Shown here piece by piece: positions 13,805-39,210 of a stretch of DNA of 54,045 nucleotides. Under the pieces are notes generated by a model. The model had not been told where the DNA came from and did no database searches. It saw only the letters and a program-made list of their open reading frames with translations. Source of the DNA: a virus; IMG/VR virus record IMGVR_UViG_3300017971_000341, positions 1 through 54,045 of that record. The stretch is one strand, 5' to 3'. The stretch's first letter is position 1. Each line of letters begins with the position of its first letter. The translations under genes and the position numbers were made by a program.

Positions 13805-14334
13805 TGTCAGGGGTAGAGGGAGTTTGGTTAGATCTGATTCGACACACCAAACCCGAGACAGTCCTGGATATTGGGTGTAGGGATCTGAGGTCCACCAGAG
13901 CCATAGCGGATCTGATTGGAGAAGGATACAGAGGGGTGGACGTTGACGCGGAGGCGATAGCCAGAGCTGGAGACTCGAGGTGTTTTGCTGTTGGTCGCAA
14001 GGATTTCGGTCTGTCTTTGGGCATGCAATTCGACATGATTCTGCTCTCCTGTGTCGTCTACCACCTCACCAATGATTTGGTGACTCTGCTTTTTATGGCT
14101 CTTCCGGAGCTGCTGACGAAGGACGGAATCGCCTGGCTGAACGTCAACACTGTGATCCCGGAGGCGTCGTGGAATGGATTGCCATTCGTCAGGAGGTCCG
14201 TCGGATTCTACAAGGGACTAGCAGAGTTCAATCAGCTTAGGCTGAATGACGTTGGGTGTCTTTCTGATTGGGGGTACACGCTGTCCAGGAGTACAGCCAG
14301 CAATCGTTTGCTGATTGTGAGGAGGAAGGTGTGA
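13804..14334 (+). CDS. Class I SAM-dependent methyltransferase
   Basis: 176 residues. Motif I is VLDIGCRDLRSTRAIA (about residues 20-35), followed by YRGVDVDAEAI (motif II acidic loop) and FDMILLSCVVYHLTND (motif IV-like), then a strand with GIAWLNVNT. It resembles small methyltransferases acting on small molecules or sugars. The substrate is unknown. It is inserted between the portal and Mu F-like genes and overlaps the APS kinase-like gene by four bases (GTGA). The pairing with a sulfate-activating kinase suggests a shared glycan-modification purpose, an inference. Confidence 0.82.
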   Translation: MSGVEGVWLDLIRHTKPETVLDIGCRDLRSTRAIADLIGEGYRGVDVDAEAIARAGDSRCFAVGRKDFGLSLGMQFDMILLSCVVYHLTNDLVTLLFMALPELLTKDGIAWLNVNTVIPEASWNGLPFVRRSVGFYKGLAEFNQLRLNDVGCLSDWGYTLSRSTASNRLLIVRRKV

Positions 14335-14813
14335 GTGTCATTTGGATCACAGGCTATCCGGGGTCTGGCAAGACGACCTTAGCGAAACGTTTGTCTTTGG
14401 ACGTCTATCGCATTGTGATTCTGGACGGGGACGAATTGCGAGAGTGTTGGGGGAATCTTGGATTCTCTGCGACGGATAGATTTGCTCAAGCTCTCAGAGC
14501 TGCGCATTTGGCCAAGATCCTAGCTAGACAGGGGGAGATCCCTGTAGTGTCTCTGGTCTCACCGGACGCTGCAGCCAGGAGGACAGCCAGTGAGATCATA
14601 GGACCAATCGGATTGATCATGGTCCACCTCGCAACGCCTCTCGAGGAGTGCAAGAGGCGGAAGCCAAGCGTCTACGAGAATCCTCCATACGCAATAGAGA
14701 ATGTCTACGAGCCACCACAGTACCCTGACGTGCGTCTGTCTGGGTGTGAGAGTGTTGGGGAAGCTTCCAGGCGGATTTGGCGATACATGTCTGGTCTCGA
14801 GGAAGACGAGTAA
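14331..14813 (+). CDS. Adenylylsulfate (APS) kinase-like protein
   Basis: 160 residues. P-loop ITGYPGSGKTTLAKRL (residues about 5-20); LDGDELRECWGNLGFSATDR (about 33-53), matching the APS kinase signature LDGD..R..L...LGFS..DR; a central ARQGEIPVVSLVSPDAAARR; and a C-terminal YEPPQYPDVRL, comparable to the YE.P..PEL end of CysC. APS kinase phosphorylates adenylylsulfate to PAPS, the donor for sulfotransferases, and two sulfotransferase-like genes lie at 36883-38692. GTG start with GGAGG five bases upstream; the longer frame from 14268 is not supported. The KGLY/FTG segment of classic CysC is altered, so another small-molecule kinase activity is possible. Confidence 0.75.
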   Translation: MSVIWITGYPGSGKTTLAKRLSLDVYRIVILDGDELRECWGNLGFSATDRFAQALRAAHLAKILARQGEIPVVSLVSPDAAARRTASEIIGPIGLIMVHLATPLEECKRRKPSVYENPPYAIENVYEPPQYPDVRLSGCESVGEASRRIWRYMSGLEEDE

Positions 14814-15778
14814 TGCCACTGCGATCTGATCCGACCAGGACCACAATGCTGCGTCGTCAATTTGTGGCTGACATGCGACGTCGATTCAAGTCGATCGCTA
14901 AGAGCGTTAGAGAGCTGGTTGTAGATCTTGACGTGTTCGGGTTGAGTGGTCCTGTGTCCTTTCTCCAGGCGGTGTCTCCTGGGGTTTGGAGATTCAGGAC
15001 CGACCCACAGAAGGTCCAGGCTTTTAGGGATTGGCTGCAGGAACAAGTAGACCGGAAGATCCTCACGGTAGACCACACAGGCAAGCCATGGACCGCTTCC
15101 TATATCGACAGCGCATACCGGAAGGGAGTAGTCCGAGCATTTGAGGACGTGCGGAAGGAGGCTCTGTCGGAGGGCGCAGATTTCTACGCGGGCACCAAGG
15201 AGGAATTTCTGCGATCTGCTTTCGCGCAGCCAGAACGGCTCTCCAAGATTGAGTTGCTGGCTACCAGAGCGTTTGAGGATCTACGTGGTGTTGGATCTAC
15301 TATGGGCCAGCAGCTCTCGAGAGAGCTGGCGTCTGGTTTGGCTCACGGTCTGAATCCCATGACGATTGCTAAGGGCATGACAGAGCGGATTGGCAATCTG
15401 ACCAGGACGAGAGCGGAGCTGATTGCGCAAACGGAGATCATAGCGGCACACGCGGAAGGGCAATTAGATTCGTTCCAGGATCTTGGAGTAGAGGAGGTGG
15501 GGGTTTTGGCAGAGTGGAGTACAGCAGGAGACGACAGAGTGTGTGAGCGGTGCGGGGCAATGGAGGGTCAGCTTCTCACTATCGAGGAAGCTAGAGGAAT
15601 GATTCCAATCCACCCAAGATGCCGTTGCACATGGATACCCTCTACAGTGGCACGAGCCAAGGACCGCAAGAAGAATTTGCTGGCAGCTGTGAAGGGATCG
15701 ATCAGAGCCGAACGCAAGAAGGGATCTCTGAAACAAGCAATAGCCAAGTCCACATGGGCTGGCAAGAATCTGTTATAG
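14813..15778 (+). CDS. Phage Mu F-like head morphogenesis protein
   Basis: 321 residues from the ATG at 14813, which overlaps the stop of the kinase gene. The C-terminal third is diagnostic: RTRAELIAQTEIIAAHAEGQ, then WSTAGDDRVCERCGAMEGQ and IPIHPRCRCTWIP, with the metal-binding Cys/His set of the Mu F domain. The N-terminal two thirds are helical. Such minor head proteins associate with the portal inside the prohead and may be ejected with DNA. Its place just after the portal (apart from the two inserted modification genes) is standard. Confidence 0.93.
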   Translation: MPLRSDPTRTTMLRRQFVADMRRRFKSIAKSVRELVVDLDVFGLSGPVSFLQAVSPGVWRFRTDPQKVQAFRDWLQEQVDRKILTVDHTGKPWTASYIDSAYRKGVVRAFEDVRKEALSEGADFYAGTKEEFLRSAFAQPERLSKIELLATRAFEDLRGVGSTMGQQLSRELASGLAHGLNPMTIAKGMTERIGNLTRTRAELIAQTEIIAAHAEGQLDSFQDLGVEEVGVLAEWSTAGDDRVCERCGAMEGQLLTIEEARGMIPIHPRCRCTWIPSTVARAKDRKKNLLAAVKGSIRAERKKGSLKQAIAKSTWAGKNLL

Positions 15779-15791
15779 GGGAGGACTGATT

Positions 15792-16085
15792 GTGGGAGAG
15801 ACGAAGGAAGATTTGAAGGTGTTGGAGGGAGACAACGAAGAGCTGAAGCCTATAGAGGCTCTGCATATCGGTTTTGTAAATCTGTGCGAGCAGTACAAGA
15901 ACATGGGGGATCAGCTAATGTTCCTGGGCAACGTCCTCCACATGGTCACGCAGCAACTACCAGAGGAGGACAGCTTGCGAGTCGAGGTAGTCCAGAAAGG
16001 ATCTCCAGCATTCCAAGAACTCAAGCGAGACAAATTCATGATCAAACATGGTATTGGTAGGGGCAGGAAGGGGAGGAGCCTGTGA
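15792..16085 (+). CDS. Hypothetical protein, 97 residues
   Basis: Not recognised. Acidic N-terminus, a central helical part (LHIGFVNLCEQYKNMGDQLMFLGNVLHMVTQQL) and a basic end (GRGRKGRSL). The GTG start has GGGGAGGA about six bases upstream and the stop overlaps the next gene (GTGA). It sits between the Mu F-like and protease genes, where small head-associated or regulatory proteins are common. Confidence 0.6.
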   Translation: MGETKEDLKVLEGDNEELKPIEALHIGFVNLCEQYKNMGDQLMFLGNVLHMVTQQLPEEDSLRVEVVQKGSPAFQELKRDKFMIKHGIGRGRKGRSL

Positions 16086-16297
16086 ATGAGTACGATCGAG
16101 GCAGGAAACAGAAGGCTCAAATGATCTGGATTGAGAGCATGTTGGCCACTGTGCAAGTAAAGCGGTGGTATGGTTCTCTGATTCTGAAAGTAGAGGACGG
16201 CATGATTCGAAGGGTGGTCAAAGAGGAGTCAATAATGCCCCCGTCCGACAGAGTGGGCAAGGGGAATCTTGCACGGAGTGGGAGGTCTCGGGTATAG
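16082..16297 (+). CDS. DUF2292-like small protein
   Basis: 71 residues. The core (VKRWYGSLILKVEDGMIRRVVKEESI) matches the DUF2292 pattern YGSV.I.V.DG.V..IE..E. Its function is unknown in the literature I can recall. It uses a GTG start with a GGGGAGGAG site about six bases upstream, overlapping the previous gene. It is followed by an intrinsic terminator at 16338. Confidence 0.6.
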   Translation: MNEYDRGRKQKAQMIWIESMLATVQVKRWYGSLILKVEDGMIRRVVKEESIMPPSDRVGKGNLARSGRSRV

Positions 16298-16337
16298 TAG
16301 AAGATTGACGTATCGAATATCTGGTAGGTACCTCACA

Positions 16338-16371
16338 AGAGGGCTCGGTTTTCGGGCCCTCTTTTCTTTTT
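16338..16371 (+). terminator. Rho-independent terminator upstream of the protease gene
   Basis: AGAGGGCTCG (16338-16347), loop GTTTT, CGGGCCCTCT (16353-16362), a 10-bp stem with one G-T pair, followed by TTTCTTTTT. It ends the packaging/portal transcript. The T-run is directly followed by the GGGGGGAGG ribosome site of the protease gene, leaving no room for a promoter after the terminator, so head gene expression must depend on read-through or on an upstream start within 16298-16337. Confidence 0.85.
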
Positions 16372-16381
16372 GGGGGGAGGA

Positions 16382-18067
16382 ATGGGAAGACAGGCAGCAT
16401 TACTAGTTACAAATGAGGATCAAACGGAGAACGCAGTCTGGTCCACCAAGTACGTCAATGATCTGCCGGATTCTGCCTTTCTCCATGTCGAGTCTGGTGG
16501 CAAGAAGGACGAGGAAGGTAAGACCACTCCCAGGACCCTACGTCACTTCCCCTACAAGGATCAGAATGGAGAGGTGGACCTCCCGCACCTCAGGAATGCA
16601 CTAGCCAGGATTCCTCAGTCGAGTCTGTCTCAGGCCGTGAAGGACAAGACCACAGCGAAGGCAGAGAAGATCCTCGAGGAACAAAAGAAGAAGGCCACAA
16701 CTAATCAATTCTGCGTGGTCACTCTAAATTTGCAGGGAGCCAAGATCAGCTACAGGAAGCTCCAAGGCAATCAGTACTTGGTCGTGCCTATGGTCATGCT
16801 GGTAGAGGGAGTCCATGCAGGATCGAATGGCCCTCTGCTCTATCTTGGAGAGGACCTCTCCAAGACTCCAGAGATTTGGAATCACAAACCTGTAGTGGTC
16901 TACCACCCCCAAGACAATGGGGTGGGGATTTCTGCGTGCTCTCCTGACGTCCTCGAGGCTCAGGGCGTAGGAATGATCATGGGAGCCAAGTACGAAGGAG
17001 GGAAGCTCAAAGCAGAAGCATGGCTTGAAGAGGATCGCCTGGAGAAGGTAGACGATAGGGTTTTGGAGGCTCTCCGAAACGGAGAAATGATCGAGCTATC
17101 TACGGGTCTCTACACAGACGTGGAGTCCACAGAGGGGGATTGGAATGGTGAGAAGTATGTAGCGATAGCCCGAAACTATCGACCAGACCACTTGGCAATC
17201 CTCCCTGACTTGGTGGGGGCGTGCTCGATCGCTAAGGGTGGTGGGCTGCTCCGCAATGAGCAATCACACGACACGATCAGGGCGGACCTCTGCAGGGTTT
17301 TGCAGGACGAGCTGAATCACAATGATTGGTGGATTGACGCGGTTTTCTCTGACTTCGTGGTCTACTGCTCAAGCAACAAACTATACAAGCGTGGGTATTC
17401 GTCCACCGACACGGGGGTCTCTCTATTGGAGGGGGACCCGGTGGAGGTGGTGAGGGTGACTGAGTACCGTTCGGTGGACGGTCAGTACATAGGCAATGTG
17501 GAGGAGAGATCAGGCATGGACAAGGAGTTGTTTGTGGGCGATCTGATCTTGAATGGGGCATGGGAGGAGTCGGATCGACCCTTCCTCATGTCTCTGGAAG
17601 AGGATCAGCTGAAGAAGATCGGCCCCAAGAAGGATCCGACCGTGAACGAGGAACCTAAGACCAAGGACGAGGATCTGCCCAAGGAGGATCCAGTAGCCAA
17701 CAAGAGACCGAAGGAGGAATCAGTGAATAAGAGTCTCACGGTGGCGGACTACATTGCCAATGCGCCAGACGGAATTCGGGACATGCTGGCGTCTGGCCTC
17801 AGGGCTCACGAGGCAGAGAGGATTCGTCTGTCTGCTGTGATCAGCGCGAACGAGAAGAACACGTTCACGTCGGAGCAGCTTGAGGGCATGAATCTGGAGA
17901 CTCTCCAGGCAGTGGCCAATCTGGCTCGCGGTAAGCAGGAACAGGAGGAGAGCCTGTCTGTTCCTTCGTTCGCGGGACTGGCAGACGCTCTCATGGGGAA
18001 TCGGGGCGACACTAAGATCGAGCCTCTGAATCCTCCGGTCATGAACTTTGAAACGGCTGCCAAGTAG
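16382..18067 (+). CDS. Prohead protease (DUF2213-like) with extra N-terminal domain and likely scaffold tail
   Basis: 561 residues. Residues about 15-105 (NDLPDSAFLHVESG...LRHFPYKDQNGEVDLPHLRNALARI) match a small domain seen alone in other phages (DUF6582-like). The protease region (about 115-290) has EMIELSTGLYTDVE and NYRPDHLAILPDLVGACSIAKGGG, the DUF2213 signature with Ser and His in reach for catalysis. Residues about 410-460 are Lys/Glu/Pro-rich and the end is helical, suiting a scaffold part. It would cleave head proteins during maturation. The ATG follows GGGGGGAGGA closely; a TTG at 16370 is in frame but lies in the terminator T-run. Confidence 0.82.
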   Translation: MGRQAALLVTNEDQTENAVWSTKYVNDLPDSAFLHVESGGKKDEEGKTTPRTLRHFPYKDQNGEVDLPHLRNALARIPQSSLSQAVKDKTTAKAEKILEEQKKKATTNQFCVVTLNLQGAKISYRKLQGNQYLVVPMVMLVEGVHAGSNGPLLYLGEDLSKTPEIWNHKPVVVYHPQDNGVGISACSPDVLEAQGVGMIMGAKYEGGKLKAEAWLEEDRLEKVDDRVLEALRNGEMIELSTGLYTDVESTEGDWNGEKYVAIARNYRPDHLAILPDLVGACSIAKGGGLLRNEQSHDTIRADLCRVLQDELNHNDWWIDAVFSDFVVYCSSNKLYKRGYSSTDTGVSLLEGDPVEVVRVTEYRSVDGQYIGNVEERSGMDKELFVGDLILNGAWEESDRPFLMSLEEDQLKKIGPKKDPTVNEEPKTKDEDLPKEDPVANKRPKEESVNKSLTVADYIANAPDGIRDMLASGLRAHEAERIRLSAVISANEKNTFTSEQLEGMNLETLQAVANLARGKQEQEESLSVPSFAGLADALMGNRGDTKIEPLNPPVMNFETAAK

Positions 18068-18082
18068 GAAAGGAGGCAAGCT

Positions 18083-18517
18083 GTGGCTGACAATCAGATT
18101 CAACTGAGTGGCGATTACATTCGGGAGGAGGCTCTAGCTTCCGGGACCGTCTCTCCGGGAATGCTCTTGGAGCTGACCAGTGCCACGGCAGACACCGTGA
18201 AGGCTCATGCCACGCAGGGTGGAGAGCATGAACGGGCGTTTGCGGTGGAGGACAGCCTCCAGGGCAATGAGATAACGGACGATTACGCGAATGGAGCCCT
18301 GGTCCAGTACAACATTGTGCAGCCTGGTGCACGAGTCCAGGCTTTGCTCAAAGCTGGCGAGAGTGTCACCAAGGGTGACACTCTGATCAGTGGCGGGGAC
18401 GGGACCTTGATAGGTGATACGGGCAGTCCAGTTCAGAAGACTGCCATTGCTTTGGAGACCTTGGACCTGTCTGCTTCGGGCTCGTCCAACACGCTAATGG
18501 ACGTTCGAGTCCTGTAG
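18083..18517 (+). CDS. Capsid decoration protein
   Basis: 144 residues, beta-rich, with the pattern of small head decoration proteins located between protease and capsid genes: LASGTVSPGMLLELTSATADTVKAHA, then GGEHERAFAVEDSLQGNEI, YANGALVQYNIVQPGARVQALLKAG and VTKGDTLISGGDGTLI. Such proteins bind the outside of the mature capsid and stabilise it. GTG start with AAAGGAGG about seven bases upstream, 15 bases after the protease stop. Confidence 0.82.
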   Translation: MADNQIQLSGDYIREEALASGTVSPGMLLELTSATADTVKAHATQGGEHERAFAVEDSLQGNEITDDYANGALVQYNIVQPGARVQALLKAGESVTKGDTLISGGDGTLIGDTGSPVQKTAIALETLDLSASGSSNTLMDVRVL

Positions 18518-18532
18518 GAAGGGAGCAGAACC

Positions 18533-19579
18533 ATGGATTACATTCTGAACGGACAGGGAATGGGTGACGTCGCCTCGACGTTGATTCGGAACGGCATGGA
18601 CCCTGGAGTCCTCCGGCCATTTGAGGCACAGGACGGTAGGACGTACGTGACGCGCAACGGGATTGCAGTTCCGGTACTGAATGCTACTGCGAGCCTCAGA
18701 AGGGACGACTGGATTCAGATCGATCGGTCTGTGATCAAGGCTGCGCAACCTCGATTGAAGGCTGTGAGCGATCTTCGATCCCGTGGTCTCGAGTACACAA
18801 TCCCCAATGGTATGGGGAGGATAACTCTTGATCACGAGAAGATGGGCGACATTTCCGACGCGGCAATCAGCATGGACGGCATGCGAGAATCGAAGTCGGA
18901 TCAGCCTCAATTCGATCTGTCGAGTATTCCTCTTCCGATCATCCACAAGGACTTCCAATTGTCGGCGCGACAGGTCATGGCCTCGCGCAACGGTGGCAGT
19001 CCTTTGGATACGACGGGAGCGGAGTTGGCTGGTCGGAAGGTGGCAGAAAGTGCGGAGAAGCTGTTGATCGGTGCTCTCAGCACGTACACCTTTGGCGGAG
19101 GTACGATCTACGGCTACAAGAATTTCGCCAGTGCTTTGACCCGGACGATTACGTCTCCGACGGCATCTGGCTGGTCGGCTGCCACGACCCTGACCGAGGT
19201 CCTGCAAATGAGGCAGGACGCTTACGACGCGTATCACTACGGTCCGTTCGTGCTGTACGCGAGTCCTGCGTGGGATGTGTACATGGATGCAGATTACTCC
19301 ACTCAGTATCCAGGAGTGACCTTGCGCCAACGGATCCAGAATGTGGAGGAAATCGAGGTTTGCAGGACTCTGGATTACCAGGGGACTGGCTACACCTTGA
19401 TCCTCGTGCAGATGACCTCAGACGTCGCGCGCATGCTGATTGGTATGGAGATCCAGACCGTCCAGTGGGAGTCCAAGGGTGGAATGCAGCTCAATTTTAA
19501 GGTGATGGGCATTCTGGTGCCTCACCTGCGAGCTGATATCAACGGCAACACTGGGATTGTTTACGGGAGCACTGCGTAG
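18533..19579 (+). CDS. Major capsid protein (HK97-like fold)
   Basis: 348 residues. Gene order (protease, decoration protein, this gene) and features point to the capsid: an N-terminal arm, IPLPIIHKDFQLSARQVMASRNGG, AGRKVAESAEKLLIGALSTYTFGGGTIYG, the LYASPAWDVYMDADYSTQYPG segment and a C-terminal beta part with VWESKG-like QWESKGGMQLNFKVMGI. It resembles the encapsulin/linocin-related capsid group. No propeptide is evident, so the protease may act on its own tail or on minor proteins. GGGAGCAG lies before the ATG. A strong hairpin follows 14 bases after the stop. Confidence 0.93.
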   Translation: MDYILNGQGMGDVASTLIRNGMDPGVLRPFEAQDGRTYVTRNGIAVPVLNATASLRRDDWIQIDRSVIKAAQPRLKAVSDLRSRGLEYTIPNGMGRITLDHEKMGDISDAAISMDGMRESKSDQPQFDLSSIPLPIIHKDFQLSARQVMASRNGGSPLDTTGAELAGRKVAESAEKLLIGALSTYTFGGGTIYGYKNFASALTRTITSPTASGWSAATTLTEVLQMRQDAYDAYHYGPFVLYASPAWDVYMDADYSTQYPGVTLRQRIQNVEEIEVCRTLDYQGTGYTLILVQMTSDVARMLIGMEIQTVQWESKGGMQLNFKVMGILVPHLRADINGNTGIVYGSTA

Positions 19580-19592
19580 GCTAGACAAGGAT

Positions 19593-19627
19593 CCCCAGGG
19601 TTGAGACCTCCCCACTCAACCCTGGGG
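19593..19627 (+). terminator. GC-rich hairpin after the major capsid gene
   Basis: A perfect 13-bp stem: CCCCAGGGTTGAG (19593-19605) and CTCAACCCTGGGG (19615-19627) with a nine-base loop, followed by TGTCTTGT. The T-run is broken, so termination may be partial; it may also protect the 3' end of capsid mRNA. A sister hairpin with the same CCCAGGG core follows the tail tube gene at 23916. Confidence 0.75.
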
Positions 19628-19657
19628 TGTCTTGTATGGGGAGAGGGAAGGACACGT

Positions 19658-20074
19658 GTGAAATTCAAGGTGTTGGGCCCAAAGCATAGTCAGTACGGTA
19701 AGACCTACAAGACGGGTGACATTATTCTGACCGGTATGGATCTGGAGAAGATGTTCGGCAAGAACAGATTCGCCAGGGTAGATTTGATACCTGATCCGAA
19801 TCCTGATCCGGTGTTCGTGACCACTACTCCGGTCAAACCAGAGCCCGAGAAGATCAAACCAGAGCCCGAGAAGAAAGAATCCAAGACTGTGAAGGGGAAG
19901 GGGACTCTCTGCACGGCGAGTTTTCCTCTGGCTGTAGAGGAGTGTTTTTGCGTGTACAGGAGAGGTGGTTGGTACCACGTTTTCGAGGACGAGCATTCTG
20001 ATTCTCCGCTGAACGAGAAGGGGATCAAGAAGGCTCATGTGGACGCATTCATAAGGGAGTACCTTGAGGGGTAA
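19658..20074 (+). CDS. Hypothetical protein after capsid gene, with KPEPEK repeats
   Basis: 138 residues. N-terminal VKFKVLGPKHSQYGKTYKTGDII looks like a small beta-barrel domain; the centre has two copies of IKPEPEK/VKPEPEK (about residues 61-75); the C-terminus (CFCVYRRGGWYHVFEDEH) is a separate small domain. No family recognised; similarly placed proteins can be head-tail or decoration factors. GTG start with GGGAAGGA seven bases upstream, in a leader that is nearly the same as that of the gene at 23977. Confidence 0.65.
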   Translation: MKFKVLGPKHSQYGKTYKTGDIILTGMDLEKMFGKNRFARVDLIPDPNPDPVFVTTTPVKPEPEKIKPEPEKKESKTVKGKGTLCTASFPLAVEECFCVYRRGGWYHVFEDEHSDSPLNEKGIKKAHVDAFIREYLEG

Positions 20075-20738
20075 GCTCCCTACGTTTTGGACTCCTGATC
20101 CGATCTGGGAAGGGGAGGACTGCTATGTCATTGGTGGTGGTCCTTCCTTACGTGGATTTGATTGGGGATTACTCAGAGGACAGAACACGATCGGCTGCAA
20201 TTCTGCGTTTCTGCTAGGCTCGCATGTTTGCAAGATTGTGATCTTCGGCGATTTCATTTGGTGGGAGAAGATTGGACGCGACTGTCTCCAGGAATACGGG
20301 GGTCTGGTCGTGAGCATTCTTCCCCCCTCCAGCAGCCAGGCTGTATCCGAGATCCCTTGGGTACTCTCCATGGATCGTAATGGTGGAGAGGTCTCCAGAG
20401 ACAAGCTGTGTTGGGCCGATAACGTTGGAGCGGCTGCGTTGAATCTAGCTCTGATACTAGGAGCACGGCGTGTTTTCCTGCTCGGATTCGATATGCAGCT
20501 TGGTCCCAAAGACGAGAAGACTGGCAGGGATCCGGGGAGGGCTAATTGGCATGATTGTCGGTGCGAGCCGGCTAGAGCAGAAGCATACCCAAGATTCCTG
20601 CGCGGATTCCCGCGTGTTGCAGATTCGATTCGACGTGTGTTTCCGGGTCGAGAGATCTACAACGTCACAGACGGAAGCAGCAAGCTAGACGTGTTTCCCA
20701 AGATCACTCTGGGAAGCACTCCAATTGGGGAGGACTAA
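20064..20738 (+). CDS. MptE/DUF115-like Rossmann protein, possible glycosyltransferase
   Basis: 224 residues. CYVIGGGPSLRGFDWGLL near the start is a nucleotide-binding-like loop of the DUF115/MptE group; NTIGCNSAFLLG, KIVIFGDFIWW, then NVGAAALNLALILGARRVFLLGFDMQL complete the pattern that these proteins share with sialyltransferase-like glycosyltransferases. A role in modifying a virion or cell-surface glycan is inferred. The TTG start has GGGAG four bases upstream and overlaps the previous gene by 11 bases. The same GNG/GGG-then-N pattern recurs in the GT29-like protein at 38689. Confidence 0.65.
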   Translation: MRGKLPTFWTPDPIWEGEDCYVIGGGPSLRGFDWGLLRGQNTIGCNSAFLLGSHVCKIVIFGDFIWWEKIGRDCLQEYGGLVVSILPPSSSQAVSEIPWVLSMDRNGGEVSRDKLCWADNVGAAALNLALILGARRVFLLGFDMQLGPKDEKTGRDPGRANWHDCRCEPARAEAYPRFLRGFPRVADSIRRVFPGREIYNVTDGSSKLDVFPKITLGSTPIGED

Positions 20739-20740
20739 TC

Positions 20741-21082
20741 ATGGAAGAGCAACAGAGCATTGGATCCTTGGTGTGGTTATTTGTAAACAGTCCAGTAGGT
20801 CTCACGATTGTTGGATCTGTTTTGGTCTGGATTCTGGGGATGGTGTTCAGGCAGAAACCCACTTGGCAAAAGATCTACGACGAGCACAAGGGTCTACTGG
20901 TAGACGCAGTCAAGCACGCAGAGAGAGCGATACCAGACGACACCGAGAACAAGGCAGCAGCCAGGGCAGACGCCGCTCTGAAATTCGTCCTCAAGGTCCA
21001 ATCCCACCTTGGAGGCAGGCAGAAGGCAGTGAAGGAAGCAATCAATGCAGCTCACAACGTGGTGGAGAGGAAGGAGCGGTAG
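20741..21082 (+). CDS. Membrane protein, possible holin
   Basis: 113 residues with one clear membrane segment near the N-terminus (SPVGLTIVGSVLVWILGMVF) and a basic, helical C-terminal part. This arrangement fits small holin-like or anchored phage proteins. GGGGAGGACTAATC precedes the ATG. It opens a run of three small membrane or lipoprotein genes that sit, unusually, between the capsid and connector genes. No endolysin is seen nearby, so the lysis role is a guess. Confidence 0.55.
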   Translation: MEEQQSIGSLVWLFVNSPVGLTIVGSVLVWILGMVFRQKPTWQKIYDEHKGLLVDAVKHAERAIPDDTENKAAARADAALKFVLKVQSHLGGRQKAVKEAINAAHNVVERKER

Positions 21083-21902: not shown

Positions 21903-21911
21903 GAGTAGTTC

Positions 21912-23482: not shown

Positions 23483-23484
23483 CA

Positions 23485-23907: not shown

Positions 23908-23915
23908 TCAGGAAT

Positions 23916-23949: not shown

Positions 23950-23976
23950 TTGCTATAGGGGAAGGGAAGGACACGC

Positions 23977-24674: not shown

Positions 24675-24676
24675 TC

Positions 24677-28101: not shown

Positions 28102-28104
28102 CGA

Positions 28105-29686: not shown

Positions 29687-29688
29687 AC

Positions 29689-30462: not shown

Positions 30463-30465
30463 CCT

Positions 30466-30912: not shown

Positions 30913-30915
30913 CCC

Positions 30916-31542: not shown

Positions 31543-33551
31543 GTGCTAGCGACAAGAGATCTCTTGGAGTGTTTGGGTTGTTTGTGATCCTGGCCATGCT
31601 ATTGGTTTCATTTGCCCTCGCTGGAGAAAAGACAATCCGCGCGGGCTATGTCGAGGGTAGGGCAACTCCGTCTGGTGTGTCTGACACTTCTGGTGGGACT
31701 CTCACCCTCTCTGGTGGGCAGGGGAGAGGGAATGCAGATCCTTCCATGGTCGTGCTGAGAGTGCCCACCAGACAAGCATCTGGTGGCACTCTCCAATCAT
31801 TGACAGACATAATCACTATGGGAGTTGATCAGGGCGTTTCGATCATAGCGTCAGCCTCGATCAGCGATACTCTCACCGTAGGAGGCACGTCGACTCTCAC
31901 CGGTCAAGCAACATTCACCGCTGGTTTGATTGATTCGACGCTCACAGCGGGGCGTGTCCCTTACGCGGACACCGACTCGAGCCTGACCGACGCGTCTACG
32001 TTCACATTCGACGGCACCAATCTTAGTGTTGTCGGCGCTGGCATCAACTCAGAAATCTTCGGGGCTAGTGCTGCGGCTGCTGGCACAGAGTCGTTTGCCG
32101 CAGGTAACTCTGCGAGTGCTGCCGGACAAGACGCGACAGCTGTAGGTCAGGGCAGCAACGCCTCTGCACAGCAGGCTACCTGCATGGGCCAAGATAGCGC
32201 AGCGTCAAATACTGGCGCCACGTCCTACGGAGAGACAGCCAGTGCCTCGGGTTCACAGTCGACAGCTATAGGCCAAGCTTCGACCGCCAGCGCAAACCGT
32301 GCGGTGGCCTTGGGCCGATATGCCAGAGCCACCACCGGAGCGGGCGCTACGGCATTAGGGGCCACTTCTTGTGCTTCTGCGACAGACGCGATAGCAATCG
32401 GGGAATCTGCCGATGCGCTGTACACCGGAGCGATCGCGCTGGGAGCAGACTGCCAAACTGATGCAAATTATCAGTTTGCTGTGAACAACGTAACTGACAT
32501 GGTTGTTGGTCGTGGCTGTTCAGGTGCGGAGCCTTGGGCGCTCACCATGCGCGTTACGCCTGCTGACAACACAAATACGGATCAAGCAGGTGGGTCCTGG
32601 ACTCTGATCAGCGGGGCAGGGACCGGAGACGGTACTGCTTCGCAGTTCTTGTTTCAGACGCCTAATCTAGTCGGGTCAGGTACAGCTTCTCAGACTGTTT
32701 CAACTCGCCTGACGATTGACGCAACCGGTATAGACGTCGAAGGCAACGCTGTACTTGATCGCCTCGAGTGGTTTGAGGTGTCTACCGCTGGGGTTGGCGC
32801 TCCCAATGTGCTTGTCGACGAGTCCAGCAAAGTGATCATTAACACCGGAGCCACGGCAGAAGCTTACAACACGCTCCCCAGCGCGGCGGCTGGATTGATC
32901 TACGCATTCGTCTGCAACGACGACGACGGCATACGCGTTACTGCTGCGGCGGGAGACACGATTAGATTGGGGGATTCTGAAACAGCAGCGGCGGGTTATA
33001 TCGCCTGTGTCAACACGGGCTCCACGGTGCACCTACTTGCGATCGACAGTGACACATGGTTTGCGATCGGGAGTGGGGACAACTTCACACATTGGTCTGT
33101 AGACGGATCACATTCTGGTTACGGGGCTGCGGCTCAAACTTACATATCTGCAAGCGCCAGCATTGACGCCTCGGGAGGAGATACGGTCGTAGGTGGTACG
33201 TGGTCTCTCTCTGACGCGTCTTGTGGATTCACGAACGACAACGGCACGCTCACGTACACTGGTGTAGCTGACGGTTGTTTTCTTGTGAATATGTCAGTGA
33301 GCGCCGATATCGACGGAGCAGGAGACGCCGGTCAGTACGACTTCAAAGTCTTCCATAATGGCACGGAACTGACGGGGTCTAAGGCAATTCAATACTACAC
33401 GGCTGCTGCGCAGTCTCACCCGGCCAGCGTTTCGATATTCGTCGAGCTGTCTACTGACGACACGTTGCGGGCATATGTTGATGGGAGCGCAGCAGGAACC
33501 GGGAATATTACTGTCACCACGGCTTGTTTGGCTGTGTCAGCACTAGAGTGA
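31539..33551 (+). CDS. Fibre/adhesin with signal-like N-terminus, YadA-like repeats and C-terminal jelly-roll
   Basis: 670 residues from ATG 31539 (GGAG eight bases upstream). Residues about 9-28 (LGVFGLFVILAMLLVSFALA) form a signal peptide or membrane segment, rare for a tail fibre. Residues about 170-305 hold repeats of about 14 residues with the YadA head pattern AxAxG..A.A.G (ASAAGQDATAVGQGSNASA, then STAIGQASTASANRAVALG), which form trimeric beta-rolls. The C-terminal 150 residues (SVDGSHSGYGAAAQTYISAS to VTTACLAVSALE) suit a C1q/TNF-like trimeric tip. No YadA membrane anchor is present. It is probably the receptor-binding fibre, or a membrane-exposed adhesin. The DNA of 31900-32460 is poor in GATC, unlike its neighbours. 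Confidence 0.78.
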   Translation: MSASDKRSLGVFGLFVILAMLLVSFALAGEKTIRAGYVEGRATPSGVSDTSGGTLTLSGGQGRGNADPSMVVLRVPTRQASGGTLQSLTDIITMGVDQGVSIIASASISDTLTVGGTSTLTGQATFTAGLIDSTLTAGRVPYADTDSSLTDASTFTFDGTNLSVVGAGINSEIFGASAAAAGTESFAAGNSASAAGQDATAVGQGSNASAQQATCMGQDSAASNTGATSYGETASASGSQSTAIGQASTASANRAVALGRYARATTGAGATALGATSCASATDAIAIGESADALYTGAIALGADCQTDANYQFAVNNVTDMVVGRGCSGAEPWALTMRVTPADNTNTDQAGGSWTLISGAGTGDGTASQFLFQTPNLVGSGTASQTVSTRLTIDATGIDVEGNAVLDRLEWFEVSTAGVGAPNVLVDESSKVIINTGATAEAYNTLPSAAAGLIYAFVCNDDDGIRVTAAAGDTIRLGDSETAAAGYIACVNTGSTVHLLAIDSDTWFAIGSGDNFTHWSVDGSHSGYGAAAQTYISASASIDASGGDTVVGGTWSLSDASCGFTNDNGTLTYTGVADGCFLVNMSVSADIDGAGDAGQYDFKVFHNGTELTGSKAIQYYTAAAQSHPASVSIFVELSTDDTLRAYVDGSAAGTGNITVTTACLAVSALE

Positions 33552-33561
33552 GAGAGGAATC

Positions 33562-33831
33562 ATGTCTGAATCGGGGAAAGCTAGCAATCTTCAGGCGGCT
33601 CTCATGATCGCTGGTTTCGTGATCCTGTTTGTCATGGCAGCGGGGGCTTTGTATAGAGCGAATCCAAAACCGCTCCACGCTCCGGCTTCCACGCCAGTTC
33701 CTCAATTGATGCCGACTACAGAGATCGCTGAAGGTATCCACAATCTGCGAGTGCAGGGTGGGTGGGTCGTATTCTCGGACCGCTGGGGTGTGTTCGTTCC
33801 TTCTCAAATCGCACCAGTACAGACGAGGTGA
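33562..33831 (+). CDS. Small membrane protein next to the adhesin gene
   Basis: 89 residues with one membrane segment (ALMIAGFVILFVMAAGALYRA, about residues 13-33), a Pro-rich linker (LHAPASTPVPQLMP) and a folded C-terminus (IHNLRVQGGWVVFSDRWGVFV). Clear ribosome site GAGAGAGG. Its closeness to an adhesin with a signal-like start suggests that the two act together at a membrane; otherwise not recognised. Confidence 0.6.
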   Translation: MSESGKASNLQAALMIAGFVILFVMAAGALYRANPKPLHAPASTPVPQLMPTTEIAEGIHNLRVQGGWVVFSDRWGVFVPSQIAPVQTR

Positions 33832-33834
33832 ATC

Positions 33835-34098
33835 ATGATCGTAGAAGTTTCCAGTTTGAGTGCCGATAAGCAAGACGCCATTCAAGAGTTGTCAGACAAG
33901 ATCCGAATGTGGGACGGAGTAGCGAGGGACTTGACTCGGGCGCAGGATCAGTTGACCGAGGTTCAAGCACGCGCTGCTGCCGCGCGTGCTGGCATTGAGA
34001 GTGTTCTTGCATTCTTCGGGATCACCACTGGCTCCGTCACGTCGTTCTCTGCGACGTTCAGCGGCGAAACTGTTTTGGAGATTCGAATCAACGAGTGA
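33835..34098 (+). CDS. Hypothetical protein with coiled-coil segment
   Basis: 87 residues. A helical part (DKQDAIQELSDKIRMWDGVARDLTRAQDQLTEVQARAAAARAGI) is followed by a short beta end (GSVTSFSATFSGETVLEIRINE). Could be a chaperone or a small trimerising fibre component for the adhesin before it. Not recognised. GAGGTGAATC precedes the ATG. Confidence 0.55.
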   Translation: MIVEVSSLSADKQDAIQELSDKIRMWDGVARDLTRAQDQLTEVQARAAAARAGIESVLAFFGITTGSVTSFSATFSGETVLEIRINE

Positions 34099-34112
34099 CA
34101 ACAGGCTGATTC

Positions 34113-34946
34113 ATGCTTGGGCACAGTGCGATTTCCGAGACTCCGATTTCAGCTCTCCCTATTGTGGGGTCGGTTCTGCCGTCGTTCCGCCGCAGGGTCC
34201 TTGGGAGTCGCACTGTACACCCCAGCATGTATCACGGGGGCAGTGGAGTCATTAGATCTGGAGGCAAGCCACCTCCATGGGTCGAATTCTCACAGACGTA
34301 TCAGCAAGGATTCAGGATAGCGGATAGCGCATACGATCTATATGAGTTGTATGTGGGAGAGGACGCTACAGTTGATTTCGACGCCAGCGGTCAGCCAGTG
34401 CAGACGTCCTCTTCCCTGCCGTTCTCTTGGACTCCTACTCCTCCGGGATCGGGATCCAAGACACTGCACATAGTAGTGCGGAAACGGAATGCATACAATC
34501 TTGTCTCCCTCAACGTGTACGAGACAATCAAGGTTATCAATGCTCTGTCTGCAGAGGTCCCTGGACCTGTGAGCGATCCATACGACGTGGCCGTCTATGA
34601 CGGAGACTTGGGCTACGTCCAGGTAATGGCTAAGTACTGCTCGACTGAGGACGGTAGTTATCCAGCTGACACGTGGGAGATCTACGTCAAGGAGGGTGCT
34701 GATCCAGTAGCAGGAGTAGATACTCCAGACTACGACGAATCCATGGTGTTCTTGGGGCACGAATCAGGAGTGTCCCAAGCGATAGGACCATTCACCCCTG
34801 GTGCTGTAGTTCATGTGCTGGTGGTCGCTAAGAGGTCGTCAGATTCCGAGAGGGGTGAAGCTTCGATCGAATTACACACCCTTGCCATTTCTCTAGATCT
34901 GGACGAGGGACTCATGTTTGGGGGTGGGATGCATGAGCAGAGATAA
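34113..34946 (+). CDS. Tail protein with Ig/Fn3-like domains
   Basis: 277 residues. The N-terminus (MLGHSAISETPISALP) is a motif common in phage tail and fibre proteins. Two beta-sandwich segments follow (YDLYELYVGEDATVDFDASGQPV...SWTPTPPGSGSKTLHIVVRKRN, and PADTWEIYVKEGADPV...AVVHVLVVAKRSS). Its ribosome site is weak (AACAGGC), so it may depend on read-through translation from the gene before it. It overlaps the next gene by 14 bases. Confidence 0.65.
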   Translation: MLGHSAISETPISALPIVGSVLPSFRRRVLGSRTVHPSMYHGGSGVIRSGGKPPPWVEFSQTYQQGFRIADSAYDLYELYVGEDATVDFDASGQPVQTSSSLPFSWTPTPPGSGSKTLHIVVRKRNAYNLVSLNVYETIKVINALSAEVPGPVSDPYDVAVYDGDLGYVQVMAKYCSTEDGSYPADTWEIYVKEGADPVAGVDTPDYDESMVFLGHESGVSQAIGPFTPGAVVHVLVVAKRSSDSERGEASIELHTLAISLDLDEGLMFGGGMHEQR

Positions 34947-35598
34947 GATCGAGTGGTCTTGGATTCCAGACAGCACTGATTGGCCAATCACTGTATCCTA
35001 CTTCACCAATGCGTTCTACCAGCGGGATGCGTTCGAGTTGGCTCGGTCTTGTCGCATGTTCCAATTGCCTTACTTGATCCAAGAGGTCCCAGATCTTGGT
35101 GGCTGGAGGGAGAACACCAATCACAAACCAACGTGGCTGATGCAAATCCATGAGAGGTTGCCAGACAGACCAATTGTGTGGCTAGATGCAGATGGTAGAT
35201 TTCGTCAGCTCCCTAGCCTTCTCCTAATCTTGCACGAGGGAATTGCATACCACACGTGGGCCGGTCGCAAGCCTGCGTCCGGTACTGTGTGGTTTGGATC
35301 TAATGGGCGTTTGGATTTACTTGAGGAGTGGGAGAGGGAGGTTCGACAGTACCCGAAGGACACAGACCAAGTCTGTCTTGGACGAGTGGTAGACCACCTC
35401 GAGATTCCGCATACGGAGCTGCCAGAGTCCTACTGCTGGGTGTTTGACGTGGAGGGGTGTGACCTAGCGATCCTCCCTGTGGTCGAGCACATGCAAGCGT
35501 CTCGCTGGACTCATAGGAGAGTCCCAGCAATCCGATCCAGCAGGCTAAATAGAGATCCCGTGCCAAAAGGGAAGAACAAACACAGGAGGAATGGCTAG
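34933..35598 (+). CDS. Glycosyltransferase-like protein (GT-A fold, DxD motif)
   Basis: 221 residues from the ATG at 34933. ITVSYFTNAFYQRDAFELARSCRMF at the start and PIVWLDADGRFRQLPSLL (the DxD-like metal site, about residue 80) suit a GT-A nucleotide-sugar transferase; the C-terminal half has DTDQVCLGRVVDHL, a common acceptor-side pattern. A longer start at 34918 is possible. It opens a run of six modification genes that end the rightward block. Acceptor unknown. Confidence 0.65.
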   Translation: MSRDKIEWSWIPDSTDWPITVSYFTNAFYQRDAFELARSCRMFQLPYLIQEVPDLGGWRENTNHKPTWLMQIHERLPDRPIVWLDADGRFRQLPSLLLILHEGIAYHTWAGRKPASGTVWFGSNGRLDLLEEWEREVRQYPKDTDQVCLGRVVDHLEIPHTELPESYCWVFDVEGCDLAILPVVEHMQASRWTHRRVPAIRSSRLNRDPVPKGKNKHRRNG

Positions 35599-36155
35599 TG
35601 GGACGTCAAAAGACGAGCAGACGCCAGGAATGGCGAATGTCAATGCAGCAGTGGCTCTTGTGTCTGTTGGGAATCAAAGACGACGGGCCTTTGGTTCTGG
35701 ATCTCGGCACAGAGTATGGGCACACAGGAGAGTCCATTCGTGGATTCCTCCCGTCCTCGCACATTGTGGGGGTCGAGGTTCACGAGCCCACTCTGCAGGC
35801 TTGCCGAGAGGATCGAGGGCACGTCTACAACAATCTCGTTCTGTGTGACGCCTTGAAATTTCTCAGAAAGACAGAGCGCAAGTGGGATGCAATCATTGCG
35901 GCTGAATTGATCGAGCATCTAACCAAGGAGGACGGGAAGCGTTTGTGCACTCTCGTGACGAAGAGATCAAAAGCAGCGATCCTCACGTCTCCAATTGGAT
36001 TCGCTCCTCAGGGACAGATCGAGAACAATCCACACCAAGAGCACATATCGGGGTGGGTTCCCGAGGAGCTTGAGAAGTTAGGATTCAAGTCATTTGCTCA
36101 AGTCTATTTCGGGTACACGTTAGGTGTCTACTACTGGAGCGAGAAACCAATATGA
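35598..36155 (+). CDS. Class I SAM-dependent methyltransferase
   Basis: 185 residues. Motif I LVLDLGTEYGHTGESI (about residues 33-48), VGVEVHEPTLQACRE (motif II), WDAIIAAELIEHLTKEDG (motif IV) and later strands. Similar to methyltransferases in capsule and LPS clusters. GTG start with GGAGGAATGG upstream, overlapping the preceding stop by one base and the next gene by four. Likely a sugar or small-molecule substrate, given the neighbours. Confidence 0.82.
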   Translation: MGRQKTSRRQEWRMSMQQWLLCLLGIKDDGPLVLDLGTEYGHTGESIRGFLPSSHIVGVEVHEPTLQACREDRGHVYNNLVLCDALKFLRKTERKWDAIIAAELIEHLTKEDGKRLCTLVTKRSKAAILTSPIGFAPQGQIENNPHQEHISGWVPEELEKLGFKSFAQVYFGYTLGVYYWSEKPI

Positions 36156-36892
36156 CCAGGATCGCAGCAGGATTCCACGTCCGAGACGACGATTGGATCC
36201 TCCCTCGCAAGCTAGACGCTCTTCGATTTTGTGATCGTGTTGTGGTTTTGATCGACGACAGATCTCCAGTAGCACCCACAGCCAAGATCTGCCAAGCCTA
36301 TCCCAACGTGATCACCAGGGTTCACAAAAACACGCAGGACCTTCCGGACCTAGGACCAGACGGACCGATTTGTGAGGAAGGTAGAATGCGTCAAGAGACG
36401 TGGGATCTCTTGGCAGAGAGCAATCCAGATTGGGTGATTCTAGGGGACGCCGACGAGATCCCTACTCCAGACGTGGTGGAATTCCTGGCCGATCCTCCAG
36501 ACGTCGACTTGGTGTATCTAGACGTTGTCCAACTCTATCAGAGCAGTCGCCACTACATTGGTGGTCCTGATTGTTTGTGGTCTCATGAGCACCCAGGATC
36601 GAACAAAAAAGGAGCCTTGATCCACTTCGATCCTGCTGTGCACAGGGACGGGGGCTATCGGTATGACGAGCGTATGCAGAGGCACTGCAGACTAGAGCCC
36701 AGTCCAACGCACAAAGCAAGAGCTGTTGTGAATCCACGGCGCATTCATGTTGATCAACCAAAACTGATTCACTGGAAGTGGGTCAACTGGGATCGCTGGC
36801 AAGGATCATTCCAAGCTGAGCTGCCAAAGTACCAGAGGCTGTGGGAGGGAATGACACTGAAGAATACCCCGGAGGATTGGTTGTGGGACTGA
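36152..36892 (+). CDS. Glycosyltransferase family 2-like protein
   Basis: 246 residues. RIAAGFHVRDDDWILPRKLDALRFCDRVVVLIDDRS begins a GT2/GT92-type fold; DWVILGDADEIPTPDVVEFL (about residues 92-112) carries the DxDE metal site; a His/Trp-rich end (KLIHWKWVNWDRW) is typical of this group. It transfers a sugar from a nucleotide donor. It overlaps both neighbours. Confidence 0.8.
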   Translation: MTRIAAGFHVRDDDWILPRKLDALRFCDRVVVLIDDRSPVAPTAKICQAYPNVITRVHKNTQDLPDLGPDGPICEEGRMRQETWDLLAESNPDWVILGDADEIPTPDVVEFLADPPDVDLVYLDVVQLYQSSRHYIGGPDCLWSHEHPGSNKKGALIHFDPAVHRDGGYRYDERMQRHCRLEPSPTHKARAVVNPRRIHVDQPKLIHWKWVNWDRWQGSFQAELPKYQRLWEGMTLKNTPEDWLWD

Positions 36893-38022
36893 TCTCGTTC
36901 CTTCACGTACCGAGGACTGGAGGCTGGTCTGTTGCTCGTGGTGTAGTTTCTGCGCTGGGAGAGGAGCGAGCGGTCCATGTGACGACTTGGAAGGAGGGAA
37001 ATCTCTCCGTCTACAGGCGTGTGGGCGAGGACCCTAGGATTCTTTGGGTTGGTGGTCACTACTCGTGGGGAGAATTTGGCAGACCCACACGGTGGGTGAC
37101 AGTACTTCGGGATCCTGTTGACCGCGTGCTGAGTTGCTACTCCTATTATCGATCCCGTACTCCCGAATTGTCTATCGGGAGAGCTGCTCAGATCATGCCA
37201 ATTCAAGACTGGGTCAGGGTGAGATGGCCCCAGATTACCAATGTGGTGACCTCCATGCTGAGTGGTGGGTCTGGAGATCTGCAAACAGCTCTAAGGAATC
37301 TAGAGGCGTGTGAGTTGGTAGGAACCACACCAGAGCTTGGGAATTTCATGGAGTCTCTTGGATCCATGCTTGGTGTGGAGATCGAGCAGACCCACGCCAA
37401 CCATGCTCCTGGGATCAGGAGAGAGCGAGCGGAACCAGAGTTAGTGGATTTAATAGAGGGAATCAATCAAGACGATATGGAACTGTGGAGATTTCTGGAA
37501 GGGCGGAAAATGCGAGACGAGAGGACGTGGAAAGACATTCGTGGCCACTTTGATTTTGCTGATCTCTACGACCGGATAGTGCACGAGGCAAGGAATGGGG
37601 ACGTCTTTGTAGAGCTGGGGGCTTGGTTGGGGAAGTCTCTAGCGTACTTTGCGCAGCGAGTGAAGGAGAGCGGAAAGCAGATCACAATCTACGGTGTCGA
37701 CACGTTCCAGTGGTCCTCCAGAGAGGAGCTAGAGTCGAATCTTCGGAGCTGTGGTGTCCTCCACATGGTGCATGTTGTTCAGTCAGACTCGGCGGAATTT
37801 GCTGCAAGATTCTCTGACGGTATGATCGACTTTGCGTTTATTGACGCTGATCATTCCTACGAGGCTGTACGTCGTGACATTCTAGCGTGGTTGCCTAAAA
37901 TGCGAGACGGAGGAACTCTAGCAGGACATGACCGACAGAGAGAGAGCGTGCACACAGCTGTACACGAGATCTTTGGTCGCGTGAATCCTTATGGTCCCTC
38001 CTCCTGGGTGGAGGTCCTCTAG
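36883..38022 (+). CDS. Fusion: sulfotransferase (N) and SAM methyltransferase (C)
   Basis: 379 residues from the GTG at 36883 (GGAGG seven bases upstream). N-terminal domain (1-200): FLHVPRTGGWSVARG matches the HxPKTGGTS loop that binds the 5'-phosphosulfate of PAPS, and VTVLRDPVDRVLSCYSYYR matches the LRDPVERxxSxY loop for the 3'-phosphate. C-terminal domain (225-379): GDVFVELGAWLGKSLAYFA, YGVDTFQW, FAFIDADHSYEAVRRDILAWLPKMRDGGTLAGHD is a Methyltransf_24-type class I methyltransferase. The fusion suggests that one acceptor is both sulfated and methylated. The Lys of PKTGG is Arg here (PRTGG), which should be noted for activity. Confidence 0.82.
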   Translation: MGLISFLHVPRTGGWSVARGVVSALGEERAVHVTTWKEGNLSVYRRVGEDPRILWVGGHYSWGEFGRPTRWVTVLRDPVDRVLSCYSYYRSRTPELSIGRAAQIMPIQDWVRVRWPQITNVVTSMLSGGSGDLQTALRNLEACELVGTTPELGNFMESLGSMLGVEIEQTHANHAPGIRRERAEPELVDLIEGINQDDMELWRFLEGRKMRDERTWKDIRGHFDFADLYDRIVHEARNGDVFVELGAWLGKSLAYFAQRVKESGKQITIYGVDTFQWSSREELESNLRSCGVLHMVHVVQSDSAEFAARFSDGMIDFAFIDADHSYEAVRRDILAWLPKMRDGGTLAGHDRQRESVHTAVHEIFGRVNPYGPSSWVEVL

Positions 38023-38023
38023 T

Positions 38024-38692
38024 ATGGCTCTGATTGTCTGCTCTCAGCCAAAGGCTGGGACTTACTTCTTGGCTCCTCTACTGGCTGAATTGGGAATCCC
38101 ATGGAGCAGGATTCATGTGACTCCCACTGGGTACATAGACCATTCCAAATCCACGCCTCAGGAGATTCGAGCTGGAGGAACCCTTGAACTGTGTCCTCTT
38201 GGCAAGACACTGCAGAAGCTAGGGCAGAGAGTGGCACAGGGTCATTTGGGTCCATGCGAGGACCTACTGCGCCACAAGGTGGTGGTGATTGTCCGCAATG
38301 GCCGATCTAGATTGCGGTCCCGAATTCAGATGGCAGGGGTTGGTGCGTTTCGGTTTCTTGAATCTCCCAGCGCTGATTTGTTCGTCCAGCAGTCCAAAGC
38401 AGTAGCAGAGTGGTGGACGTCAGATCACCCAGTAGCTAGATTCAAATTCGAGGACATGTTGCCTGCTATGACCCTCCATGTCCTTGACGATCTAGCTATG
38501 ATCACGGGTCGGTCGCTAAAGGACGTCATGGCTGCATACCACAATGTGGTTGGGAAAGACTACGGAACTCTGAATCCTGATCAGTCCCACCACGGGGTGC
38601 TCCAGCCCACCACCGAATTGTGGTATCAAAAGCATCTAGCAGAGCTGGATCGATTCTTGGGTTACTCTCCTGAGGCTGGGAGACTGGTGTGA
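38024..38692 (+). CDS. Sulfotransferase-like protein
   Basis: 222 residues. VCSQPKAGTYFLAPLLAELG near the start matches the PKSGTT(F/Y)L phosphosulfate loop; KVVVIVRNGRSRLRSRI takes the place of the RDPRDxxxS loop; ARFKFEDMLPAMTLHVLDDLAMITG matches the 'yEdL...p......i..fLG' region. It would move sulfate from PAPS to a hydroxyl on a sugar or protein. It starts one base after the fusion gene, with GGAGG upstream, and overlaps the GT29-like gene by four bases. Confidence 0.72.
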   Translation: MALIVCSQPKAGTYFLAPLLAELGIPWSRIHVTPTGYIDHSKSTPQEIRAGGTLELCPLGKTLQKLGQRVAQGHLGPCEDLLRHKVVVIVRNGRSRLRSRIQMAGVGAFRFLESPSADLFVQQSKAVAEWWTSDHPVARFKFEDMLPAMTLHVLDDLAMITGRSLKDVMAAYHNVVGKDYGTLNPDQSHHGVLQPTTELWYQKHLAELDRFLGYSPEAGRLV

Positions 38693-39210
38693 TCTCGACT
38701 GAGGATCTACTTGCGGATCTCCCTCGACCAATAGCTGTGGTGGGGAATGGATCCGTGGACCTCAAGGGGGAGGAGATCGACAGTCATGCATCTGTGATTC
38801 GAATCAACAACTATCGAATCCTGGGATACGAGAATTGGGTAGGGTCTAAGATCGGAGTTTGGTGTGTGAATTGTTGGTGGGATCTAGAGAATCGGACCCC
38901 CTCTGTCCCTGTATGCACTCCCTTCCATGCAGAGGACGACTCCGGCAGGATTTTACGGTGGGAGGCTCGTTATGGAGTCGATTTGATCAAACCGGAGCGT
39001 CGGTGGTCTGAGGAGGTGCGAGGGATCAAAGCCAAGAAGCCCAGCACTGGTCTCCTCCTCCTGTTTGCACTGGACTCGCTAGGGATTCCAGCGGACGCCT
39101 ATGGTTTCGACGGGCTAGTGGCTGGTCACTATTGGGACAGAGCACATAAGCACGACCACCCAGAGGAGCGGAGCGCTCTTGATTCTCTGACCCTGATAAA
39201 TTACAGGTGA
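38689..39210 (+). CDS. GT29-like sialyltransferase-type protein
   Basis: 173 residues. Motif L: IAVVGNGSVDLKGEEIDSHASVIRINNYRILGYENWVGSK, with the GN.......G..ID....V.R.N.....YE..VG.K pattern; motif S: KKPSTGLLLLFALDSLGIPADAYGFDGL; end motifs HYWD and H....ERSALDSL, the motif III and VS equivalents. GT29 enzymes transfer sialic acid from CMP-sialate; the bacterial and viral members often have unknown donors. It is half the length of animal enzymes but keeps the core. It is the last gene before the rightward terminator. Confidence 0.78.
   Translation: MISTEDLLADLPRPIAVVGNGSVDLKGEEIDSHASVIRINNYRILGYENWVGSKIGVWCVNCWWDLENRTPSVPVCTPFHAEDDSGRILRWEARYGVDLIKPERRWSEEVRGIKAKKPSTGLLLLFALDSLGIPADAYGFDGLVAGHYWDRAHKHDHPEERSALDSLTLINYR

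Follow-up and report, generated by a model that had tools for sequence, protein, structure and literature searches.

A predicted glycan-sulfation arm in the late operon of an uncultured phage

In rhizobia, NodPQ and NodH carry out the sulfation of Nod factors, so that a gene supplying 3'-phosphoadenosine 5'-phosphosulfate (PAPS) is combined with a dedicated sulfotransferase for a secreted glycan. In viruses, genes of the adenosine 5'-phosphosulfate (APS) kinase family, cysC, have been reported from freshwater phages (62 in 7,334 genomes; PMC10914622) and from hadal viruses (PMC9529941), and in both cases were interpreted as part of assimilatory sulfate reduction. Sulfotransferases of the Sulfotransfer_3 family occur in OM43 phages and in cyanophage S-SRM01, and their role there has been called unclear (PMC10580990). 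Glycosylation of the virion is described for mycobacteriophages (Freeman et al. 2023, as cited in PMC12691614). Here we analyse an uncultured phage, IMG/VR virus record IMGVR_UViG_3300017971_000341, over its whole 54,045-nt stretch (the window), which carries an APS-kinase-family gene together with two sulfotransferases and several sugar-modifying enzymes. With moderate confidence, we read these genes as a late module for tailoring glycans, one arm of which adds sulfate, with the kinase as the predicted source of PAPS.

All genes named in the original prediction are present as open reading frames (ORFs) and lie inside a late operon on the + strand that contains terminase, portal, minor head, major capsid protein (MCP), tail and fibre-like genes (Table 1). 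Judging by this gene order, they are probably expressed late, together with the virion genes. Both sulfotransferases are flanked by sugar enzymes where the operon ends on its 3' side, in line with the glycan-modifying setting that had been proposed. The genes interspersed among those named are virion genes (TerL, portal, minor head, MCP and tape measure). Chance or assembly error is a very unlikely source of the arrangement, because a sister contig (IMGVR_UViG_3300017963_000387) carries all these genes with a single nucleotide difference across the 15 genes compared.

The kinase starts with GTG at 14331, and the longest frame opens with TTG at 14268. The protein matches the APS_kinase family PF01583 with E 1.5e-24 and 87 bits, well above the cut-off of 21.1, and 24 APS-kinase sequences in the PDB (best E 5e-18), which bears out the predicted fold family. 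According to alignments, it keeps the P-loop GYPGSGKTT, DGDELR, LGFSATDR and the SP motif (VSP), and its lid is reduced to PSVYENPPYAIENVYEPP. On these sequence grounds we assign the protein to the APS-kinase family, with APS as a putative acceptor; this acceptor is the weakest step of the sulfation reading. The more specific claim of a PAPS-making kinase is thus upheld as to family and APS-site motifs and loosened as to the acceptor, given the lost lid. The kinase probably makes PAPS, the donor for both sulfotransferases. As was originally noted, the window has no ATP sulfurylase, at least as judged by the absence of an HxGH-type motif, and the kinase would phosphorylate host-made APS, thereby increasing the amount of PAPS.

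Both predicted sulfotransferases retain PAPS-loop residues, as had been claimed. For the protein encoded at 38024 (ST2), scans of family libraries gave no direct hit, tblastn against phage records returned a single insignificant match, and a two-sequence hhalign comparison with other sulfotransferases produced nothing significant. The latter result was superseded by a 13-sequence profile (the window protein and 12 viral homologs) and by the predicted fold. In all 13 aligned sequences SQPKAGTY, R91 and S99 are invariant, so that both the 5' phosphosulfate-binding (PSB) loop PKxGT and the 3' PSB pattern R-x7-S are present. The best PDB matches of the profile are cytosolic sulfotransferases (5x2b, E 1.7e-4). 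The AlphaFold2 (AF2) model, whose mean confidence (pLDDT) rose from 37 with a single sequence to 81 with the 13-sequence alignment, matches PAP/PAPS-bound sulfotransferases with a Foldseek probability of 1.00 (structural match VIA: Z 11.5, root-mean-square deviation 3.9, 195 residues aligned). Family, motifs and modelled fold together identify ST2 as a PAPS sulfotransferase. The protein encoded at 36883 is a fusion, and its C-terminal half matches Methyltransf_24 with E 1.6e-23. Its N-terminal half (ST1) has no tblastn matches in phage records, matches phrog_3347 (galactose-3-O-sulfotransferase) with E 9.5e-4, and is aligned by hhalign to profiles of viral sulfotransferases (Sulfotransfer_2) with 93-96%. 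The profile of its family (A7) finds heparan sulfate 6-O-sulfotransferase (5t03, E 2.1e-10) and heparan 2-O-sulfotransferase (E 5.9e-5), and six of the 11 family members match PF03567. In the 3' PSB region R76 and S84 are invariant. Profile similarity therefore places ST1 in the heparan 6-O/2-O-sulfotransferase family.

 
A scan for APS-kinase-like genes recovered at least 80 viral contigs, about 20 of them with a full lid and the rest short-lid. Linkage was assessed with custom sulfotransferase profiles for 49 nonredundant kinases, against 2000 draws of random genes from the same loci. In 9 of the 49 loci, no more than 200 b separate the kinase from a sulfotransferase (random-gene mean 1.4, maximum 7). 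The distance is at most 5 kb for 12/21 full-lid and 5/28 short-lid kinases, a tally in which the pattern wrongly counted the short-lid kinase L057 as full-lid. Short-lid kinases directly adjoin sulfotransferases in five nonredundant groups, and in L276 an ST2-family gene overlaps an APS-kinase-like gene. Searching in the reverse direction with ST1 gave 18 loci, several of them near-copies, seven of which have an APS-kinase-like gene within 5 kb. The two domains even share a single 393-aa ORF (L037:2630-3808), consisting of a full-lid APS kinase and a sulfotransferase-like half assigned from the motifs PRKSGT and RRDPKNIAVS only. The co-occurrence suggested as a check is therefore found, whereas the belief that the pairing is unusual does not hold, as it recurs in many viral contigs. 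Elsewhere (L041:9575-10540, L069:9989-10795 and L125:3393-4148) the APS-kinase-like domain shares its ORF with a nucleotidyltransferase that has an HxGH motif (GRWQPFHKGH, for example); such fusions are possibly a minimal viral PAPS synthase or an enzyme of nicotinamide adenine dinucleotide (NAD) type.

The lineage of the window itself was followed with its MCP, which identified 28 relatives besides the sister contig, many of these records being fragments. An APS kinase scores over the cut-off in one of the 28, G062 (IMGVR_UViG_3300028840_002623), where it occupies the same slot as in the window, between portal and minor head, and carries a fused HxGH nucleotidyltransferase. Between G062 and the window, the kinases share 41% identity over 93 aa, the MCPs 59.6% and the portals 49%; the closest syntenic relative of the window kinase is L125:3393-4148 (41% over 93 aa, E 1.9e-16). 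The late operon of G062 also ends in two sulfotransferase-like genes accompanied by glycosyltransferases and FkbM-like methyltransferases, but homology to the window cluster is detectable in the GT-A-like gene only, and the sulfotransferases are unrelated. Because a homologous kinase in the same slot goes together with different sulfotransferases, the simplest reading would be retention of the donor kinase through a replacement of the transferases. In eight other relatives a Sulfotransfer_3 gene is present, but no APS kinase was seen in these records. The original prediction had regarded relatives keeping one part without the other as evidence against it; such relatives do exist, yet the idea survives them, since their sulfotransferases could draw on PAPS from the host. 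The relatives have 131 accessory ORFs, in which Sulfotransfer_3 is the most frequent Pfam family (8); next come families such as GDP-mannose dehydratase (6), FkbM methyltransferase (6), GT2 (6) and GT11 (5).

In some relatives, a GDP-mannose dehydratase and an epimerase/GDP-fucose-synthase-like gene are found among the head genes (L125:5619-7489 and L124:639-2521). GT11 genes are also present in the lineage.

Several observations weigh against the sulfation reading. The score of the kinase for the apsK equivalog TIGR00455 is 84 bits against a cut-off of 138.7, and alignments show neither the KGLYKKA..FTG lid nor the Asn of NIRR. In APS kinase structures, the lid Phe stacks on adenine; this residue is gone together with the lid, and APS as the acceptor is weakened because the APS-binding lid is absent. 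In addition, the kinase and the sulfotransferases are 22 kb apart in the window, and in the 5' PAPS loop of ST1 (PRTGG) the usual Lys is replaced by Arg and Thr by Trp, the same Arg being found in the homologs L054 and L178. The protein might instead be a related small-molecule kinase, for example of the type that phosphorylates cytidine diphosphate (CDP)-phosphoramidate when Campylobacter makes its capsule, or of an NAD pathway, with the sulfotransferases using host PAPS. Apart from the lost lid and the low equivalog score, this is favoured by the PRK05541 subfamily among the profile matches and by the eight kinase-less relatives. It also draws on a quick tree that places the kinase, on a long branch, next to the short-lid kinases of viruses; we do not use the tree as proof, because long branches tend to join and make the placement unsure. 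Moreover, in cultured Casjensviridae (L285, L286 and L287) a short-lid kinase-nucleotidyltransferase lies beside NADAR-type, MazG-like and 'cysteine dioxygenase' genes. The cultured members with a short-lid kinase gave one Sulfotransfer_3 match, which was sub-threshold. Because kinase-nucleotidyltransferase fusions adjoin NADAR genes, a role in NAD metabolism is possible for part of the short-lid group and equally likely in those phages. However, short-lid kinases do adjoin sulfotransferases in the groups noted above, the APS-site motifs DGDxxR, GFSxxDR and SP are retained, and no CDP-phosphoramidate pathway genes were recognised on inspection of the window's ORF list. On balance, we regard a different kinase activity as unlikely, although it deserves to be taken seriously.

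Another view follows the published reading of viral cysC (PMC10914622, PMC9529941), in which the phage gene is taken to raise sulfate assimilation in the host so that more cysteine can be synthesised. We searched 50 viral records with APS kinase, the sister contig included, for PAPS reductase (cysH, PF01507) and found it in none of them, whereas in 19 of the 50 a sulfotransferase exceeds its Pfam cut-off. As a control, ThyX was present in seven of the 50 and never near the kinase. With kinases both adjacent and fused to sulfotransferases, and cysH absent from these 50 records, we rejected sulfate assimilation as the role of the module and consider it highly improbable. Taken together, the adjacency, the fusion and the lack of cysH point to glycan sulfation as the shared function of phage cysC and phage sulfotransferases, and suggest that viral cysC genes usually serve this purpose rather than sulfur nutrition. 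For the sulfation reading, this comparative pattern is stronger support than the window taken by itself. A wider and more tentative proposal, to which we give somewhat less than even credence, is that a PAPS supply encoded by the phage itself, through short- or full-lid kinases, is widespread and serves dedicated sulfotransferases; the two would make up a viral system of glycan sulfation, and the published phage cysC genes would be part of it instead of sulfur assimilation. As part of the same proposal, the small HxGH adenylyltransferase to which some kinases are fused may make APS, acting as a minimal ATP sulfurylase, and other kinases may be fused to the sulfotransferase itself.

If the sulfation reading is correct, ST1 and ST2 would transfer sulfate from PAPS to sugar hydroxyls; their family assignments, motifs and, for ST2, fold are described above, and the sugar substrate is our supposition. 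The neighbouring glycosyltransferases and methyltransferases, judging by their clustering, would build and cap the same glycan, and a charged glycan coat on the virion might provide shielding or alter adsorption. The virion is the most likely site of the modified glycan, at about even confidence, because the module lies in the structural operon and interchangeable sugar modules are found beside head and tail genes. The same enzyme classes would be expected if the module acted on a host surface glycan (capsule, lipopolysaccharide or O-antigen), blocking superinfection or changing the receptor, and phages are known to modify O-antigens. Yet the genes sit in the late structural operon, and the membrane flippase, polymerase and acyltransferase of O-antigen conversion were not noticed in the module; we therefore see a host-surface target as rather less probable than a virion one.

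The other genes of the module are assigned with varying certainty (Table 1). Of the proposed methyltransferases, the one at 35598 is just over its cut-off and the C-terminal half of the fusion is clear, while the one at 13804, which occupies the portal/minor-head slot, falls below. Similarly, among the sugar enzymes the GT29 assignment at 38689 exceeds its cut-off, whereas the matches at 34933 and 36152 are weak; the former has homologs in L023, L114 and G062 (30%, E 2.5e-21). The GT29-like protein is short (173 aa against a 272-position profile) and is best described as putatively sialyltransferase-like, with transfer from cytidine monophosphate (CMP)-sialic acid a prediction. The MptE-like gene at 20064, which scores just 18.9 bits against PF01973 (cut-off 34.6), had been counted with the sulfation genes. 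We rejected this membership: the gene follows the MCP in almost all lineage relatives (L124-L151) and is for this reason a core gene of the lineage. It is a candidate core virion glycosyltransferase (MptE/Maf-like, phrog_4603, GT42-like).

Table 1. Genes of the predicted module and associated features in the window
Feature	Coordinates	Strand	Basis
Class I methyltransferase, overlaps kinase start	13804..14334	+	Methyltransf_12 E 1.2e-5, below cut-off
Short-lid member of the APS-kinase family, proposed to form PAPS	14331..14813	+	PF01583, motifs
MptE/Maf-like or GT42-like protein	20064..20738	+	phrog_4603 'alpha-2,3-sialyltransferase' E 3e-20
GT-A-like glycosyltransferase	34933..35598	+	Nucleotid_trans E 0.11, below cut-off
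Class I methyltransferase	35598..36155	+	Methyltransf_25 27.3 bits, cut-off 27
GT2-like glycosyltransferase	36152..36892	+	Glyco_tranf_2_4 E 0.0017, below cut-off
Fusion, N-half Sulfotransfer_2/HS6OST-type sulfotransferase (ST1), C-half Methyltransf_24	36883..38022	+	PRTGG, RDPVDRVLS
Sulfotransferase, viral SQPKAGTY family (A6; ST2)	38024..38692	+	motifs, family profile, fold
GT29 (sialyltransferase)-like, short	38689..39210	+	PF00777 E 3.5e-11, 43 bits vs cut-off 23

Outside the module, the window shows several further features. A DNA-level search of phage records with the window returned zero matches, and Rfam and tRNA scans of it found none. The stretch 40230-43500 has a GC content of 64-70%, compared with about 53% elsewhere, encodes a helicase-like protein and two pentapeptide-repeat proteins, and is possibly a recent import. 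On the - strand, 47819-51507 contains a cluster of three DNA-adenine-methyltransferase-like genes, one of which has an in-frame repeat of ~14 residues, INRQRPHLGDSGQG. Long Lys/Ala/Pro (KKTAKKTPAKK) and Glu/Asp runs of histone-tail-like low complexity are encoded at 1545-2393 and 52686-53864 (-).

Taken singly, both cysC and sulfotransferases have been described from phages, while their pairing appears to be not rare yet undescribed; in open-access full text, we found no papers joining the two, nor any account of phage particles that carry sulfate or of host surfaces sulfated by a phage. The pairing gives a testable role to two phage annotations without an agreed function. If this role is real, it predicts such particles or surfaces, and viral sulfur genes would have to be counted differently in biogeochemistry. 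Compared with known systems, the published viral cysC is, like the window gene, an APS-kinase-family gene in a phage genome, but it was read as assimilatory, whereas the genes analysed here are linked to sulfotransferases and occur without cysH, and the window copy is lidless. The sulfotransferases of OM43 phages and S-SRM01 share the fold of the window proteins and differ from them in Pfam family, and the part of the source concerned with them reports no donor kinase alongside. In mycobacteriophages, phage-encoded glycosyltransferases decorate virions as proposed for the window module, sulfation not being mentioned in the passage that cites this work. L037 (IMGVR_UViG_3300033153_002979) resembles the window in combining a sulfotransferase-like protein with an APS kinase and in having an MptE-like gene nearby, and differs in placing both domains in one ORF and in its full APS lid. 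The rhizobial NodPQ/NodH system is bacterial, includes ATP sulfurylase and involves no phage; what it has in common with the window is the combination of a PAPS supply with a dedicated sulfotransferase.

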